Source: Methylobacterium segetis (GTDB taxonomy: Bacteria; Pseudomonadota; Alphaproteobacteria; Rhizobiales; Beijerinckiaceae). From it: a DNA stretch of 64,000 nt. The translations under genes were made by a program, and so were the position numbers. Each line of letters opens with the position of its first letter. The stretch's first letter is position 1. Under the pieces are notes generated by a model, which was not told the DNA's origin, searched no databases, and saw only the letters and a list, made by a program, of their open reading frames with translations. Positions 55,892 to 63,587 of the stretch are shown here, in pieces. Location: positions 1-64,000 of the forward strand of contig NZ_SMNT01000005.1 in the NCBI RefSeq assembly GCF_004348265.1. The letters are read 5' to 3'.

Positions 55892-57283
55892 TCAGCCGCC
55901 GAACAGGCGGCGGAGGGTTGCCAGGAAGCCGCGGGGCTCCGTCGTCTCGCTGGCCGGCGCGGAGGCGCTGCCACCGTGCGAGCGCGGTGCCTGAACGAGC
56001 CCGAGGGCCGCCGTGTCGGTGCTCTCGCGATCGATCAGGATCAGGCTGCCCGTGTCGCGGTTCTCGACGTAGGGGTCGAAGGCAACTGCGCGGTCGAGCG
56101 TCAGGGTCACGTCGGCGATGTCGTTGGCCGCGAGCCGCTCGGCCGGGCCTGGGCGCCCCGTCTCCGGATCGATGCGGGTGCGGATCGCGCTCACCGTGGC
56201 GTTCACGGTCACCGTGCCGATCTTGGCGAGGAGCGTCGATCCGGGTCGGAGCTCCGTCTCGGCCGCCCAGAACAGGCGGGTATCGAGAGTGTCGGAGACC
56301 TGGAGCGGCGCATTCGCCGCCGCGATGACGGCCCCGCGGGAGGCGTCCACCTCGTCCGAGAGGACCAGCGTCACCGACTGGCCCTCAACCGCTTCCGCAA
56401 GGTCTCCGTCGGCCGTGGCGATGCGAGCGATCGTGGTGGAACGGCCAGAGGGCGCGACGGTGACGCGGTCGCCGGGGCGCACACGCCCGCTGGCGACCAG
56501 CCCCGAGAAGCCGCGGAACTCGGAGTTCGGGCGGTTCACCCACTGCACGGCCATGCGGAACGGGGCGGCCTGCGCCTCCTCGTGCACCGGCACCTCTTCC
56601 AGATACTGAAGGAGCGGCCCGCCGGTGTACCAAGCGGCGGCGGTGCCCGGCAGCACGACGTTGTCGCCGTTCTTGGCCGAGAGCGGGATCGCGCGGACCT
56701 CCGCGAAGCCGAAGGTCGCCGTGAAGGCGTTGAAGCCCGCGAGGATCGCCTCGAACTTGTCCTGCGACCAGCCGACGAGATCCATCTTGTTGACGGCGAG
56801 CACGACCCGCCTGATGCCGAGCATCGAGACGAGGAGCGCGTGGCGCCGCGTCTGGCGGGTGAGGCCCTGGCGGGCATCGACGAGGATCACGGCCACGTCC
56901 GCCGTCGAGGCGCCGGTGGCCATGTTGCGGGTGTACTGCTCGTGGCCGGGCGTGTCGGCGACGATGAAGGAGCGCTTGTCGGTCGAGAAGAAGCGATAGG
57001 CGACGTCGATCGTGATGCCCTGCTCGCGCTCGGCCTGGAGGCCGTCCACGAGGAGCGCGAGATCGACCTCGGCGCCCTGCGTGCCGTGCTTGCGCGAATC
57101 CCGCTGAAGGGCGGTGATCTGGTCGTCGAAGATCTGCTTGGTGTCGTGCAGGAGGCGCCCGATCAGGGTCGACTTGCCGTCGTCGACCGAGCCGCAGGCG
57201 ATGAAGCGCAGGACTTCCTTGCTCTGGTGCGCGGTGAGAAACGCCTCGTAGCCGAACGCCTCGGGCGACTGATGGATCGTCAT
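55892..57283 (-). CDS. cysN: Sulfate adenylyltransferase subunit 1 (GTPase)
   Basis: EF-Tu-like GTPase subunit of 463 residues that drives APS formation with CysD. G motifs are GSVDDGKST at residues 31-39, DTPGHEQYTRNM, NKMDLVGW and SAKNGDNV. It ends after the beta-barrel domains with a Gly/Pro/Ser-rich tail and has no fused APS-kinase domain. Its ATG overlaps the CysD stop by one base (TGATG). Third gene of cysH-cysD-cysN. Confidence 0.95.
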   Translation of the reverse strand: MTIHQSPEAFGYEAFLTAHQSKEVLRFIACGSVDDGKSTLIGRLLHDTKQIFDDQITALQRDSRKHGTQGAEVDLALLVDGLQAEREQGITIDVAYRFFSTDKRSFIVADTPGHEQYTRNMATGASTADVAVILVDARQGLTRQTRRHALLVSMLGIRRVVLAVNKMDLVGWSQDKFEAILAGFNAFTATFGFAEVRAIPLSAKNGDNVVLPGTAAAWYTGGPLLQYLEEVPVHEEAQAAPFRMAVQWVNRPNSEFRGFSGLVASGRVRPGDRVTVAPSGRSTTIARIATADGDLAEAVEGQSVTLVLSDEVDASRGAVIAAANAPLQVSDTLDTRLFWAAETELRPGSTLLAKIGTVTVNATVSAIRTRIDPETGRPGPAERLAANDIADVTLTLDRAVAFDPYVENRDTGSLILIDRESTDTAALGLVQAPRSHGGSASAPASETTEPRGFLATLRRLFGG

Positions 57284-58224
57284 CAGAAATAGCCCTCCTG
57301 CTTCTTACGCTCCATGGCGCCGGCGCCGTCCTTGTCGATCACCCGGCCCTGCCGCTCGGACGTGCGGGCGGCGAGCGTCTCGCCGATGATCTCGGGCAGG
57401 GTCGCGGCGGGGCTCTCGAAAGCGCCGGTGAGCGGATAATCGCCGAGCGTCCTGAAGCGCACCTGGAGATGGCGCGGGGTCTCGCCGGGCTCGAGGGGCA
57501 GGCGCTCGTCATCCACCATGATGAGCTGTCCCTCCCGCTCGACGACAGGGCGCTCCTTGGCGAAGTAGAGCGGGACGATCGGGATCTGCTCCTGCTCGAT
57601 GTAGAGCCAGATATCGAGCTCGGTCCAGTTCGAGAGCGGGAAGACGCGCAGGGATTCGCCGCGCTTCTTCTTCAGGTTGTAGAGGTGCCAGGGCTCCGCG
57701 CGCTGGCGCTTCGGGTCCCAGCGGTGCTGAGGCGTCCGCAGCGAGACGATGCGCTCCTTGGCGCGGGACGCCTCCTCGTCGCGGCGGGCGCCGCCGAAGG
57801 CCGCGTCGAACTTGTGCTTGTCGAGCGCCTGACGCAGGGCCTGCGTCTTCATCACGTCGGTGTGCACCTCGGAGCCGTGGCTGATCGGGCCGATGCCCTT
57901 GGCGAGGCCCTCCTGGTTCGTGTGCACGATCAGCTCGGCGCCGATCTCCGCGGCGCGCCGGTCCCGGAAGGCGATCATCTCGCGGAATTTCCAGGTCGTG
58001 TCGATGTGCATCAAGGGGAACGGCAGGCGCCCCGGCGCGAAGGCCTTCAGCGCCAGATGCAGCAGGACCGAGGAATCCTTGCCGATCGAGTAGAGCATCA
58101 CCGGGTTCTCGGTCTCGGCGACCGTCTCCCGCATGATGTGGATGCTCTCGGCCTCCAGGCGCTGGAGGTGGGTCAGGCGACCGGGTCCGAGCCGTGCGGC
58201 CGTGGTCGCGGGGGCGGCGCTCAT
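57283..58224 (-). CDS. cysD: Sulfate adenylyltransferase subunit 2
   Basis: PP-loop ATP sulfurylase subunit of 313 residues that makes APS from ATP and sulfate. The PP-loop motif is [20 protein letters not shown]; others are [37 protein letters not shown] and RKKQEGYF at the C-terminus. Its ATG overlaps the cysH stop. CysD and CysN form the heterodimeric enzyme. Confidence 0.96.
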
Positions 58225-59015
58225 CGGGCCATCTCCGGTGTCTTGAGGTTCGTGGTTTCGAAGGCGGCCGCTTCCTGGCCGGGCTGCACGCTCGCCTCGG
58301 GGACGTGCACGTGCAGGCCGCACTCCTTCTTGGATTCCTGCTCCCACCACCAGCGGCCGGCGCGCTCGGGCTCTCCGACGCGCACCGCCCGGGTGCAGGG
58401 GGCGCAGCCGATCGAGGGGAAGCCCCGATCGTGCAGGACGTTGTAGGGGATGAAATTGTCACGCACGAACGCGTCGACGTCCGCCCGCGTCCAGTCGGCG
58501 AGCGGGTTCACCTTGATCAGCCCGCGCGCCTCGTCGGCCTCGGCGAGGGGCGTGTCGGCGCGGTTGGCCGACTGACCGGCGCGCAGGCCCGTGAACCAGA
58601 TGTCGGCCCCCGCGAGCGCCCGCGCCAGGGGCTCGACCTTGCGGAAGCCGCAGCATGCCTGCCTTGCGGCCACCGAATGGCGAAAACCGTTGATGCCCTC
58701 CTCCCGGACGAATCGTTCCTCGGCCTCACGCTCCGGCGCGTAGGCGCGGATGCGGATGCCGTAGGCCGATTCGGTCTCGGCCCAGACGTCGTAGGTCTCG
58801 GGAAAGAGGCGGCCCGTGTCGAGGGTGACGATCTCCGTGCGGGATCTCGCCATAGCCAGCGCATGCGTCAGCGCCTGATCCTCGATGCCGAGGCTCGTGG
58901 TGAAGACGAGGCGGCCGGGCACCCTGCGCTCGACGAGCGCGATGCGCCCGGCGAGGTCGAGGCCGGCCAGCGCCGCAGACAGCTCGTCCGCAGCCAGAGC
59001 GAGTTCGCGAGTCAT
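58221..59015 (-). CDS. cysH: Phosphoadenylyl-sulfate/adenylyl-sulfate reductase, APS type
   Basis: Reductase of 264 residues producing sulfite from activated sulfate. PP-loop-like region [18 protein letters not shown] is at 41-58. The cysteine pairs CC at 121-122 and Cys204/Cys207 (CAPC) match the [4Fe-4S] of APS reductases, and the catalytic ECGLH Cys is at 232. The iron-sulfur set predicts APS rather than PAPS as substrate. First gene of the leftward operon. Confidence 0.94.
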
Positions 59016-59047: not shown

Positions 59048-59081
59048 TTGTCCGGCCCCTGAAATGTTCGCTATAACGAAC
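59048..59081 (+). promoter_or_regulatory. Candidate promoter with palindromic operator between the sulfate operons
   Basis: Rightward -35 TTGTCC (59048-59053), 18 bases, -10 TATAAC (59072-59077). A perfect palindrome GTTCG-CTATAA-CGAAC (59066-59081) covers the -10, a classical operator position. It lies between cysH (ending leftward) and the Lrp/AsnC regulator gene, so it could be the regulator's site. A minus-strand TTGACA (59089-59084) could serve cysH but its -10 is poor. Confidence 0.6.
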
Positions 59082-59253
59082 GGTGTCAAGGCTGGAGCCG
59101 TGTCCCGGGCCGGTCTTGCACCGCAGTAGGAAGCCCGACGGCAACCGAGGCGGGTGCCGACAGGTTGCCTGGTCGAGGAAGATCCTTCTCATACCAGGCT
59201 CACATCCGTGCGAGCGCGCACCTGCCTTCGTTCACGAGCAAGAGAGGTCCGGC

Positions 59254-59757
59254 TTGGATTCGATCGACCTGAAGATCCTCGCGCTTCTGCAGCAGGACGC
59301 CACGCTCTCCATCGCCGCCATCGGCGAGAAGGTGGGCCTCTCCCAGACCCCGTGCTGGAAGCGGATCCAGCGGCTTGAGGCGGACGGCGTGATCGACCGG
59401 CGGGTGGCCGTGCTCGACCCCGTCAAGCTCGGGCTCGGCCTGACCGTTTTCGTCTCGATCGAGACGGCGGATCACTCGAAGGAGTGGCTCGACCGATTCG
59501 CCTCGACCGTCGCGGCGATGCCGGAGGTGCTCGAGTTCTATCGAATGGCGGGCGACGTGGACTACATGCTGCGGGTCGTGGTCGCCGACATGCGTGCCTA
59601 CGACACGTTCTACAAGCAGCTCATCGCGACGCTGCCTCTCAAGAACGTGACATCGCGATTTGCCATGGAGAAGGTGAAGTCGACGACGGCCCTCCCGCTT
59701 CCGGCACCGCCGACCAACACCCGCCACGTGCCGGTCCTGGCACTGGCCGGAGAATAA
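59254..59757 (+). CDS. Lrp/AsnC family transcriptional regulator
   Basis: Regulator of 167 residues. The N-terminal helix-turn-helix reads [20 protein letters not shown]-type followed by [19 protein letters not shown]; the C-terminal RAM domain starts [16 protein letters not shown] and ends with a Pro/Thr tail. The start is TTG at 59254, with AGAGAGG six bases upstream. It lies between the divergent cysHDN and cysJI operons, so it probably controls sulfate reduction, sensing an amino acid or sulfur metabolite. Confidence 0.9.
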
Positions 59758-59866
59758 GCTTCTCTTTTGCGTCGCAACAGCGAATGGCTCTTCTACCGCG
59801 AGGTCGTTCTGTAAAACGGACATTCCCCGTTGACAGAAGCCGTCGCGCAGACGACATGGTCTCTTG

Positions 59867-61633
59867 ATGTCCCGACAAGCACTCCTCCCCCGCACCGCAC
59901 CGTTCGGCGATACCGAGCGGGCCAGCCTCGACTCCGTGCTGGGGACGGCGACACCGATCCAGCGGGCATGGCTCGCGGGCTTCCTCGCCGGCCTCGACGC
60001 GGCAGGGGGCCAGCCCGCGTCGGCGCCCGCCGCGCCTCCCAAGGCTGCCGAGCCGCTCGCCATCGTCTATGCAAGCGAGTCCGGCAATTCGGAGAAGCTC
60101 GCCGGCGATGTGGCGAAGCTCGCCCGCAAGAGCGGCTTCAAGCCCAAGGTGATCGACTTCGCGGATCTCGAGTTGGCGAACCTCGCCAAGGAGAAGCGCA
60201 TCGTGGCGATCGCCGCGACCTGGGGCGAGGGCGAGCCTCCGGCCCGGGCCGTGCGGGCCTACAACGAGTTGATGGGCGACGGCGCGCCGCGTCTCGACGG
60301 GGCCGAGTTCAGCGTGCTGGCGCTCGGCGACACGAGCTATGCCGAGTTCTGCGCCATCGGGAAGGCGCTCGACGAGCGGTTCGAGGCGCTCGGCGCCAAG
60401 CGGGCCTTCGAGCGCGCCGACCTCGACCTCGATTTCGACAAGCCCGCCGCGGAGTGGATCAAGGGCGCCCTCAAGGCGCTCGCCCCGCCGGCTGCCGCGG
60501 CCGACAACGTGGTCGCCGTCGATTTCGCCCGGGGCGGCCACGATGAGGATGCCGAACCGAGCCGCGACCCGGTCGTGGTCGAGGTCGTCGATCATGTGAA
60601 CTTGAATTCGTCGCGCTCCGACAAGGAGACGATCCACCTCGCGCTCGCCTTCGAGGACGGGGCGCCGGCCTACGAGCCGGGCGACTCGCTGGAGATCTAT
60701 CCCGAGAACGACCCGCAGCTCGTCGAGGACATCCTGAAGGCCGCGGGCCTGACGGGCGACGAAGCCCTGCGCCGCGCCCTCCTCGCCGAACGCGACATCA
60801 CCACGCTGTCGGCCACCACCGTCGAGCGTTTCGTCAAGGCGACCGGGCACGAGGAGGCGAAGCGCCTGATCGAGAGCGGGGAGGTTCGCGCCTGGATCGA
60901 GGGCCGCCACCTAATCGACCTGATCGAGACCTATCCGGCCAAGCTCACGGCCGAGCACCTGAACGCCGTCACCAGGCCCCTGCCGCCGCGGGCCTACTCG
61001 ATCGCATCCTCGCGCAAGGAGGTGGGCGACGAGGTTCATCTCGTGATCGCCGCCGTGCGCTACGAGACCCACGGCCGGTCCCGGTCCGGCGTCGCCTCGG
61101 TTCACGTGGCCGACCGGATCCGGAACGGGGCCAAGCTCCGCGTGAAGCTGAAGCCGAACCGCCACTTCCGCCTGCCGGCCGATCCCGCCACCGACATCAT
61201 CATGGTCGGCCCCGGCACCGGCGTCGCCCCCTTCCGCGCCTTCGTGCAGGAGCGCCGCGCCGCCGAGGCGCCCGGCCGGTCGTGGCTGTTCTTCGGCGAC
61301 CGCCATTTCACCCACGACTTCCTGTACCAGCTCGAATGGCAGGACGCGCTGGAAGATCGCTCGCTGACGCAGATCGACGTGGCCTTCTCGCGCGACCAGC
61401 CCGAGAAGATCTACGTGCAGGACCGCCTGTTCGAGCGCCGCAGGGAGCTCGTGGAATGGCTCGATGCGGGCGCCCACCTCTACGTCTGCGGCGATGCGAA
61501 GAACATGGCCAAGGACGTGCGGGCGGCCGTCGTCAGGTCCTACGCCGACGTGAAGGGCCTCTCGGATGCCGAGGCCGAGGCTGCCGTCGCGGGCCTGGAG
61601 CGGGCGCACCGCTATCAGCAGGACGTTTACTGA
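59867..61633 (+). CDS. cysJ: Assimilatory sulfite reductase, flavoprotein subunit
   Basis: Flavoprotein of 588 residues that passes electrons from NADPH to CysI. A short N-terminal segment (IQRAWLAGFLAGLDAA) precedes the flavodoxin domain (VYASESGNSEKLAGDVAKLA, FMN site), then the FAD domain with RAYSIASSRKEVGDEV, and the NADPH part with VGPGTGVAPFRAFVQER and LYVCGDAKNMAKDVR. ATG at 59867 is preferred over TTG at 59864. A TTGACA motif at 59830-59835 might give a nearly leaderless mRNA. Operon with cysI. Confidence 0.94.
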   Translation: MSRQALLPRTAPFGDTERASLDSVLGTATPIQRAWLAGFLAGLDAAGGQPASAPAAPPKAAEPLAIVYASESGNSEKLAGDVAKLARKSGFKPKVIDFADLELANLAKEKRIVAIAATWGEGEPPARAVRAYNELMGDGAPRLDGAEFSVLALGDTSYAEFCAIGKALDERFEALGAKRAFERADLDLDFDKPAAEWIKGALKALAPPAAAADNVVAVDFARGGHDEDAEPSRDPVVVEVVDHVNLNSSRSDKETIHLALAFEDGAPAYEPGDSLEIYPENDPQLVEDILKAAGLTGDEALRRALLAERDITTLSATTVERFVKATGHEEAKRLIESGEVRAWIEGRHLIDLIETYPAKLTAEHLNAVTRPLPPRAYSIASSRKEVGDEVHLVIAAVRYETHGRSRSGVASVHVADRIRNGAKLRVKLKPNRHFRLPADPATDIIMVGPGTGVAPFRAFVQERRAAEAPGRSWLFFGDRHFTHDFLYQLEWQDALEDRSLTQIDVAFSRDQPEKIYVQDRLFERRRELVEWLDAGAHLYVCGDAKNMAKDVRAAVVRSYADVKGLSDAEAEAAVAGLERAHRYQQDVY

Positions 61634-61784
61634 CCCGCTGCCGCCGGGATTTCCCCTCCCCTCGCGGGGACGGGCCTCAGGGGTCGAGGACGTTCCGCAC
61701 AGAGCGATGCGGTCCTCTCGATCCCTCCCCACCTCCTCCCTCCTCCCCACGAGCGGGCGGAGACGCTATCACCGGACCGCCGCC

Positions 61785-63587
61785 ATGACCGACCGCAAGC
61801 CTTCCTCCGAGCGGGTCTACGAGACGCCGCCGACCGACCGGCCCATCTCCGAGGCGGAGGCCGCGCGGACGGCCGGGCTTGCCCATAACGAGCACATCAA
61901 GATCGCGAGCGGCTATCTCCGCGGCACCCTGGCCGACGGGCTTCTCAAGCACGCCACCGGCGCCATCTCGGAAGATGACGGTCAGCTCGTGAAGTTCCAC
62001 GGGATGTACCTGCAGGACGACCGGGACCTCCGGCCCGAGCGCACCAAGAAGAAGCTCGACAAGGCCTACAGCTTCATGATCCGGCTCCGCATCGCGGGCG
62101 GCGTCGTGACCCCGAAGCAGTGGCTGATCCTCGACAACATCGCCACCACCTACGCCAACGGCACGCTGCGGGCGACGACGCGGCAGACCTTCCAGTATCA
62201 CGGCGTCATCAAGTCGAACCTGAAGCGGACGATGGCCGGCATCGACGCGGCGCTCCTCGACACGATCGCCGCCTGCGGCGACGTGAACCGCAATGTGATG
62301 GCGGCGACGAACCCGGCGCAGACCGGCGCGCACAAGGCCGCCTACGACCTTGCCAAGACCATCTCGGATTCGCTCCTTCCCAAGACGAACGCGTGGCGCG
62401 AGATCTGGCTCGACGGCGAGCGGGTGATCGGCGGCGAGGATGCGGCGGAGGTCGAGCCGATCTACGGCAAGACCTACCTGCCGCGGAAGTTCAAGACCGT
62501 GATCGCCGTGCCGCCCTCGAACGAGGTCGACATCTTCGCCCACGATCTCGGCTTCATCGCGATCCTCGACAAGAAGGGCAAGGTGACGGGCTGGAACGTC
62601 ACCGTCGGCGGCGGCATGGGCATGACCCACGGCGAGACCGACACCTTCCCGCGCACGGCCGACGTGATGCTGTTCTGCGAGCCTGCCGACGCCCTGAAGG
62701 TGGCCGAAGCGGTGATGACGGTCCAGCGAGACTGGGGCAACCGCAAGAGCCGCAAGAACGCGCGCCTGAAGTACACGATCGAGCGCTACGGCCTCGCGGC
62801 TTTCCGCGCGGAGGTGGAGAAGCGCGTCGGCAAGAAGCTCGCCGATCCGAAGCCCTTCAAGTTCGAGAGCAACGGCGACCGCTACGGCTGGGTCGAAGGC
62901 GAGGACGGGCGCCACCACCTCACCCTCTTCGTGCCCTCCGGCCGCGTGAAGGACATCGAGGGCGGCCCGCAATTCCTGTCGGGCCTGCGCCGCATCGCCG
63001 AGGTGCACGAGGGCGATTTCCGGCTGACCGGAAACCAGAACGTGATCATCGCGAACGTCCCGGCGGCCAAGCGGGCCGAGATCGACGCGCTCGTCGAGGA
63101 ATACGGCCTGACGAAGGGCGCGGGCGCCCTGCGCCGGAACAGCATGGCCTGCGTCGCGCTGCCGACCTGCGGCCTCGCCCTCGCCGAGAGCGAGCGCTAC
63201 CTGCCCGACCTCATCACCGAGCTCGAGGAGAGCCTCGCCCGCCACGGCTTGGCGGAGGACGAGATCACCATCCGCATGACGGGCTGCCCGAACGGCTGCG
63301 CCCGCCCGTTCATCGCCGAGATCGGCCTCGTGGGCCGCGGGCCCGAGCGCTACCACCTGTATCTCGGCGCCGCCTTCGACGGGTCTCGCCTCGGCAAGCT
63401 CTACGCCGAGGACGTGACGGCGGCCGAGATCCGTCCGACGCTCGAGCCGCTCTTCGCGGCCTATGCGAAGGAACGCACGACAGGCGAGCGCTTCGGCGAC
63501 TACCTGATCCGCGCTGGCTACGTGGCCCGCACGATCAACGGTCCGGACTTCCACGAGCAGACCGGATCGCTGAAGAGCGCAGCCTGA
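61785..63587 (+). CDS. cysI: Assimilatory sulfite reductase, hemoprotein subunit
   Basis: Siroheme/[4Fe-4S] enzyme of 600 residues reducing sulfite to sulfide. Cluster ligands are the Cys pairs CVALPTC (456 and 462) and CPNGC (501 and 505). Other blocks are NEHIKIASGYLRGTLADGL, RATTRQTFQYHGVIKSNLK and RLTGNQNVIIANV. The E. coli-like length and the CysJ partner identify the NADPH-type enzyme. 150 bases of GC-rich palindromic sequence separate it from cysJ. Confidence 0.95.
   Translation: MTDRKPSSERVYETPPTDRPISEAEAARTAGLAHNEHIKIASGYLRGTLADGLLKHATGAISEDDGQLVKFHGMYLQDDRDLRPERTKKKLDKAYSFMIRLRIAGGVVTPKQWLILDNIATTYANGTLRATTRQTFQYHGVIKSNLKRTMAGIDAALLDTIAACGDVNRNVMAATNPAQTGAHKAAYDLAKTISDSLLPKTNAWREIWLDGERVIGGEDAAEVEPIYGKTYLPRKFKTVIAVPPSNEVDIFAHDLGFIAILDKKGKVTGWNVTVGGGMGMTHGETDTFPRTADVMLFCEPADALKVAEAVMTVQRDWGNRKSRKNARLKYTIERYGLAAFRAEVEKRVGKKLADPKPFKFESNGDRYGWVEGEDGRHHLTLFVPSGRVKDIEGGPQFLSGLRRIAEVHEGDFRLTGNQNVIIANVPAAKRAEIDALVEEYGLTKGAGALRRNSMACVALPTCGLALAESERYLPDLITELEESLARHGLAEDEITIRMTGCPNGCARPFIAEIGLVGRGPERYHLYLGAAFDGSRLGKLYAEDVTAAEIRPTLEPLFAAYAKERTTGERFGDYLIRAGYVARTINGPDFHEQTGSLKSAA

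Follow-up and report, generated by a model that had tools for sequence, protein, structure and literature searches.

In enterobacteria, the cys genes and the sulfate transport genes are controlled by CysB, an activator of the LysR family, and the genes considered here resemble that regulon in that cys and sulfate transport genes appear to be controlled at the level of transcription. Sites of the Lrp/AsnC type have short inverted arms around an A/T centre, and the SqrR/ArsR-like motif is ATTC-N8-GAAT; a literature search for the latter motif as a parallel to our site gave nothing useful. The nearest system by function would be McbR of Corynebacterium, a SAH-responsive protein of the TetR family, although its host belongs to the Actinobacteria and its motif differs from the GTTC-N8-GAAC motif described below. 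There, methionine genes and cysteine genes alike are under a single repressor, McbR (PMC4239095).

According to Leyn et al. 2014 (PMC4239095), methionine control in the Rhizobiales lies with SahR and with the SAM_alpha riboswitch. SahR, of the ArsR family, has metK and the genes of the SAM cycle under its control in many Rhizobiales, including Ensifer (PMC4239095, PMC8877191). It has a 20-bp palindrome and other core targets, whereas the motif described here spans 16 bp and is found at sulfate, cysteine, metX/Y/Z and sulfonate genes; none of the SahR-type targets ahcY, metH and metF was recognised beside the motif sites that we inspected. SAM_alpha (SAM-II) controls metY, and sometimes metX and metA (PMC4239095). 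The word Methylobacterium is absent from the main text of Leyn et al. 2014, and neither cysteine nor sulfur occurs in the main text of Leyn et al. 2016 (PMC5343134). A search of titles and the beginnings of abstracts, with subscription papers mostly outside its range, gave among the matches listed no paper on the motif, on an Lrp regulator of cysJI or on a sulfur regulon of Methylobacterium.

The window, by which we mean the whole stretch of 64,000 nucleotides from Methylobacterium segetis that was analysed, contains two divergent groups of sulfate-reduction genes with the following features.

55892 to 57283, minus strand: cysN, sulfate adenylyltransferase large subunit (gene-type assignment)
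57283 to 58230, minus strand: cysD, sulfate adenylyltransferase small subunit (gene-type assignment)
58221 to 59015, minus strand: cysH, APS/PAPS reductase (gene-type assignment)
59048 to 59053, plus strand: TTGTCC, -35-like box of lrp
59066 to 59081, no strand assigned: putative operator 1, GTTCGCTATAACGAAC, common to the divergent cysHDN and lrp promoters
59072 to 59077, plus strand: TATAAC, -10-like box of lrp inside operator 1
59084 to 59089, minus strand: TTGACA, -35-like box of cysHDN, 2 bp from operator 1
59177 to 59189, plus strand: GGAAGATCCTTCT, an RRAA-N5-TTCT palindrome, candidate operator of Lrp
59254 to 59757, plus strand: lrp, Lrp/AsnC-family regulator with a TTG start (PF01037 and PF13404)
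59806 to 59821, no strand assigned: putative operator 2, GTTCTGTAAAACGGAC, upstream of cysJI
59830 to 59835, plus strand: TTGACA, -35-like box of cysJI, 8 bp downstream of operator 2
59867 to 61633, plus strand: cysJ-type sulfite reductase flavoprotein (best family CysJ, with a score below the curated CysJ cut-off)
61782 to 63587, plus strand: cysI, sulfite reductase hemoprotein (gene-type assignment)

A sequence-only reading of the window had proposed that a palindrome, GTTCG-N6-CGAAC, serves as an operator between these divergent operons, that it overlaps a candidate -10 element of lrp and that the Lrp protein reads it. The letters of the palindrome were confirmed at 59066-59081, and the assigned gene types bear out its position between cysHDN and lrp-cysJI. 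The cysH ATG (59015, minus strand) lies 50 bp downstream of the palindrome on one side, and the TTG start of lrp (59254) lies 172 bp downstream on the other. The candidate -10 element also stands, since TATAAC lies inside the site and 18 bp after TTGTCC. A generic promoter scan called no promoter at this element or elsewhere around the sites.

We considered whether the palindrome is significant by itself and rejected this possibility. The 238-bp gap between cysH and lrp contains two perfect inverted repeats with 5-bp arms and a spacer of 0 to 10, against 2.9 expected from 500 order-1 Markov resamples, 90% of which had at least one such repeat; with the spacer fixed at exactly 6 there is one repeat against 0.28 expected in the resamples. 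Thus, the palindrome is at chance level in one sequence, and operator 1 is significant because it is conserved. GTTC-N8-GAAC was found between cysHDN and lrp in all 47 named Methylobacterium/Methylorubrum loci with cysD and cysJ, whereas 0.22 occurrences were expected per 47 Markov-resampled upstream regions. These loci come from 80 named loci, 49 of them from Methylobacterium/Methylorubrum, of which L188 and L191 were dropped since no cys genes were present in the fetched stretch. Orthologous loci are not independent, and the named loci share genomes with the G-numbered loci used below, such that the counts are not additive. The palindrome is therefore kept in the relatives that keep the gene order, whereas its loss there would have refuted the sequence-only reading by that reading's own standard, and a second copy, GTTC-N8-GRAC, precedes cysJ in all 47 loci (operator 2 in the window).

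The pattern of conservation also refines the motif. In operator 1, neither the four outermost pairs nor the inner TATA varied among the 47 loci, the fifth pair was broken in three and the sixth pair never pairs. When 18 of the 30 genus loci were aligned (leaving out 12 in reverse orientation), the 16-mer was nearly invariant and its flanks drifted. Judged by these positions, the motif is better described as GTTC-N8-GAAC with an A/T-rich centre than as GTTCG-N6-CGAAC. The asymmetry of the sixth pair would be expected from a need for the top strand to contain the TATAAC of lrp as well. We conclude from the comparison that operator 1 is very likely a genuine operator. Its form is ordinary, and it would belong to a regulon that appears to be undescribed. 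The proposal that the palindrome is an operator was supported in this respect, although the copies before cysJ, near sbp and near metK in the same genome had been overlooked.

Genome-wide searches indicated how far the motif extends. The exact GTTCG-N6-CGAAC pattern occurs at 27 places in the genome of the window, compared with 4 for the reversed control. The motif GTTCKNYAWAMMGAAC was present in all 37 genus genomes (reversed pattern, 2/37). Of the 149 genomes searched from its family, which has 43 genera in this set and which we take to be the Beijerinckiaceae, 114 had the motif (reversed pattern, 18/149). It was not enriched in other families of the order (7/24 genomes versus 5/24 for the reversed control), and the loose GTTC-N8-GAAC pattern without the A/T centre was not clearly above its reversed control genome-wide in nine genomes. 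With genes named from their translations, exact or one-mismatch copies in the genome of the window include two before sbp of the sulfate transporter, one near metK, two before a gene for a FAD-dependent oxidoreductase-like protein, and copies near groES and mazG; one-mismatch matches also occur inside genes. The motif was upstream of sbp in 30/30 genus loci checked (the 30 best matches; 37 genus genomes have sbp), compared with 0/30 in the following 320 bp.

Other loci around matches were chosen from longer match lists blind to gene content, with the known lrp-cys loci left out, and target genes were named from their translations. Genes at these loci included metK, metX, metY, metZ, metB and sbp-cysT, as well as sulfonate and methionine ABC transporter genes, SsuE, rhodanese and others. 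For 82 of the 116 distinct sites, the position was -60 to 420 bp upstream of a canonical sulfur or methionine gene; the target list was drawn up after the loci had been inspected, and the canonical genes were counted separately. The other 34 sites were assigned to groES (5), mazG (4), rsmI (4), FAD oxidoreductase (3), oppA (3) and sfnB-like (2) genes or were unassigned (13).

Several of the latter group recur. In several Methylobacterium genomes, a groESL copy is preceded by the motif: that of the window (L075 1501-1516, C163:4009) and those of L122, L130 and L140. TTGAC begins about 23 bp from the start of the motif at these copies. It would be odd for a sulfur operator to control a chaperonin. 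Motif copies also lie in the vicinity of mazG in Methylobacterium (L084, which is C27:31639 of the genome of the window, and L120, L132, L139 and L147), while other family genera have it at or between divergent genes whose translations resemble RsmI, a SAM-dependent methyltransferase, and an LppC-like lipoprotein (L344, L356, L359, L361 and L378). In the genome of the window, two motif copies 147 bp apart lie near the FAD-dependent oxidoreductase-like gene (L081 1501-1516 and L082 1501-1516; C22:24594 and 24741); this gene is 74% identical to that of L126, and the motif is also upstream in L126, L153 and L154.

Motif sites occur in either orientation relative to the gene, as for a site in double-stranded DNA that is bound by a protein. 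SAM_alpha, in contrast, is an RNA element, and Rfam gave no match at the gathering threshold in nine sources, among them the metY, metX, metZ, metB and metK loci. An RNA element was disfavoured on account of the two orientations and the absence of an Rfam match in these nine sources.

The positions of the sites relative to putative promoter elements were also compared. Measured from the motif start in 104 sites with an assigned gene, orthologs included, TTGAC clustered at -34 (4 sites), -17 (14), -8 (10), +23 (13) and +33 (15). On the cysH side, TTGAC was exactly at -8 in 47/47 loci, and the same was true of sbp in 30/30 Methylobacterium loci. Thus, two unrelated operons are laid out identically, with the motif occupying the spacer and extending into the -10 region, although no convincing -10 box follows the TTGACA of cysH. 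A site within the promoter spacer is in a repressor position, and the layout at cysHDN and sbp would accordingly be repressor-like. On the lrp side, TTGT(C/T) was at -18 in 35/47 loci and the motif covers the -10-like box, an arrangement similar to that of metY (-17). On the cysJ side, TTGAC began 22-25 bp after the motif start in 44/47 loci, as it does at the sulfonate and groES promoters. The usual position of an activator is upstream of the -35 element, and operator 2, upstream of the -35-like box of cysJI, is possibly activating. As the position of TTGAC varies with the target, and as one sbp promoter from a different genus (L349) departs from the -8 arrangement, a repressor that acts alike everywhere is not the simplest reading.

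These positions also bear on the explanation that the conservation is merely that of promoter elements and that the palindrome is incidental. The TTGTC-18-TATAAC of lrp and the TTGACA of cysH overlap or abut the palindrome, in keeping with this explanation. However, the 16-mer recurs at other genes at several distances from TTGAC (-34, -17, -8, +23 and +33), and promoter function alone therefore does not account for it. We regard this explanation as extremely improbable.

The sequence-only reading had named the adjacent Lrp/AsnC protein as the reader of the palindrome, and in its full form this explanation holds that Lrp, bound at the palindrome, is the repressor of its own gene and of cysHDN and the controlling protein of the sulfur regulon. 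The site is in the lrp promoter region in 47/47 loci, and its short arms around an A/T centre suit an Lrp-type site. Moreover, Methylobacterium soli has a paralog of lrp by genes for a sulfonate-type ABC transporter; GTTCCTTTTAAAGAAC and GTTCTCTATACCGGAC precede this paralog, and RRAA-N5-TTCT is absent. In three other genera lrp adjoins cys genes (L277, L293 and L351), with the motif upstream of lrp in L293 and L351, and in L288 and L294, which have no cys gene in the fetched stretch, GTTC-N8-GAAC lies about 200 bp upstream of lrp. The M. soli paralog is 87% identical and is represented by L038 and L188, which are the same sequence.

Against these observations, none of the 30 relatives of Lrp from outside the family, at 70-79% identity, has GTTC-N8-GAAC upstream of its gene. 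This set comprised 31 relatives placed outside the family by name, of which L237 was dropped for having too little upstream sequence; no cys gene was found in the fetched flanks of the 30. Within the family, GTTC-N8-GAAC was upstream of 3 of 23 lrp relatives, and the genus paralogs L037 and L191 lack GTTC-N8-GRAC in their 6.5 kb. What the outside relatives share instead is the RRAA-N5-TTCT palindrome, which was found upstream in 24/30 of them, in 46/47 Methylobacterium lrp leaders and in 11/23 family relatives, with chance expectations from Markov resampling of 0.56 and 0.47 for the 30 outside relatives and the 47 Methylobacterium loci, respectively. This pattern was widened after the sequences had been inspected, and strict AGAA-N5-TTCT is present in 3/47 Methylobacterium loci and 18/30 outside relatives. 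The copy at 59177-59189 is thus a candidate for the operator of Lrp itself. We rejected RRAA-N5-TTCT as the mark of a co-regulator at all sites, as it was found at cysJ in 0/47 loci and near 18 of 114 other sites; its absence at cysJ was counted against Lrp as the reader. In one relative, L213, the sole locus inspected among L208-L238, translations indicated that lrp and a rhodanese-like gene point in opposite directions and that a gene for a YeeE/YedE-type transporter is nearby, which suggests a sulfur role for Lrp there too.

The distribution of the motif also departs from that of Lrp. Six family genomes have no match to the adjacent Lrp, and the motif was present in three of these (G162, G171 and G192) and absent from three; G076, with a marginal match (E 7e-4), has two motif sites. 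The only PF01037 proteins of these four genomes are of another type. In G171, G192 and G076, where the motif precedes metK, the sole PF01037 protein has a different recognition helix (SRGTVQNRL versus SQTPCWKRI). The motif marks sulfur and methionine genes across the family, including genomes with only the other type of PF01037 protein. From these data the adjacent Lrp is probably not the reader, and we consider it unlikely that Lrp binds the palindrome and governs the regulon. The sequence-only reading was right about the location and probably wrong about the regulator.

We also examined the genes that recur beside the sites. Among neighbour clusters of at least three loci, the only regulator recognised besides lrp and one lrp paralog was an XRE-family protein, a relative of SinR, encoded just upstream of metK. 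In the family genera other than Methylobacterium, we recognised no other regulator gene that was repeatedly next to a target site. SinR binds GTTCTYT, with a preference for inverted repeats (PMC3163267), and the XRE protein was pursued as the reader on account of these SinR-like half-sites. Some motif sites, such as GTTCTTTATAAAGAAC, match the GTTCTYT inverted repeat, although the window site departs from it and reads GTTCGCT. The test concerned the 22 non-Methylobacterium loci among L402-L431, of which 17 had metK in the fetched stretch; the other five were left out. In 16 of these 17 order-level genomes with the XRE gene beside metK, GTTC-N8-GAAC was lacking between the two genes. The XRE proteins of the 17 genomes have a common helix, (T/S)FQQ(V/I)QKYEKG, whereas the metK-adjacent copy has diverged in that helix in two Methylobacterium genomes inspected. 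The metK-adjacent XRE protein was disfavoured on both counts, and that it reads the motif appears very unlikely.

Having weighed these alternatives, we consider it probable that the palindrome is one operator of a family-wide sulfur and methionine regulon and that it is read by a dimeric protein, probably other than the adjacent Lrp. The sites, their conservation, the neighbouring genes and their positions come directly from the sequence, and from these we infer that a protein binds, that a single one serves all sites, and that repression and a metabolic signal are involved. According to our model, a dimeric DNA-binding protein would read GTTC-N8-GAAC and would sense the sufficiency of sulfur amino acids through methionine, SAM, SAH or cysteine. 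When bound at 59066-59081, it would occupy the spacer and -10 region of cysHDN together with the -10-like box of lrp, and its binding would shut off cysHDN and lrp when reduced sulfur is plentiful. Operator 2, upstream of the -35-like box of cysJI, has another geometry and may be activating. Since operator 1 lies over the -10-like box of lrp, Lrp would be a target, and with its own RRAA-N5-TTCT site it may act as a second layer. The presence of lrp at the locus brings Lrp/AsnC systems to mind, but here some genomes that have the motif lack any close relative of Lrp, and the relatives outside the family carry another palindrome.

We lean slightly towards a broader form of this model, in which a single undescribed factor acting through GTTC-N8-GAAC would control the uptake and reduction of sulfate, the use of sulfonates, the synthesis of homocysteine, and SAM synthetase in Methylobacterium and its family, in the place that SAM riboswitches, SahR or CysB have elsewhere. 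The same factor would control lrp, and Lrp would be a subordinate relay with its own RRAA-N5-TTCT operator. Our comparison corrects the natural, and probably wrong, inference that a regulator gene beside an operator encodes the reader of that operator. For a large family whose bacteria are plant-associated and methylotrophic, it also provides a map, readable from genomes, of a regulon for sulfur and methionine, and the operator is a defined DNA bait with which the regulator could be fished out. As methylotrophs use SAM and one-carbon chemistry heavily, the switch may be of practical use.
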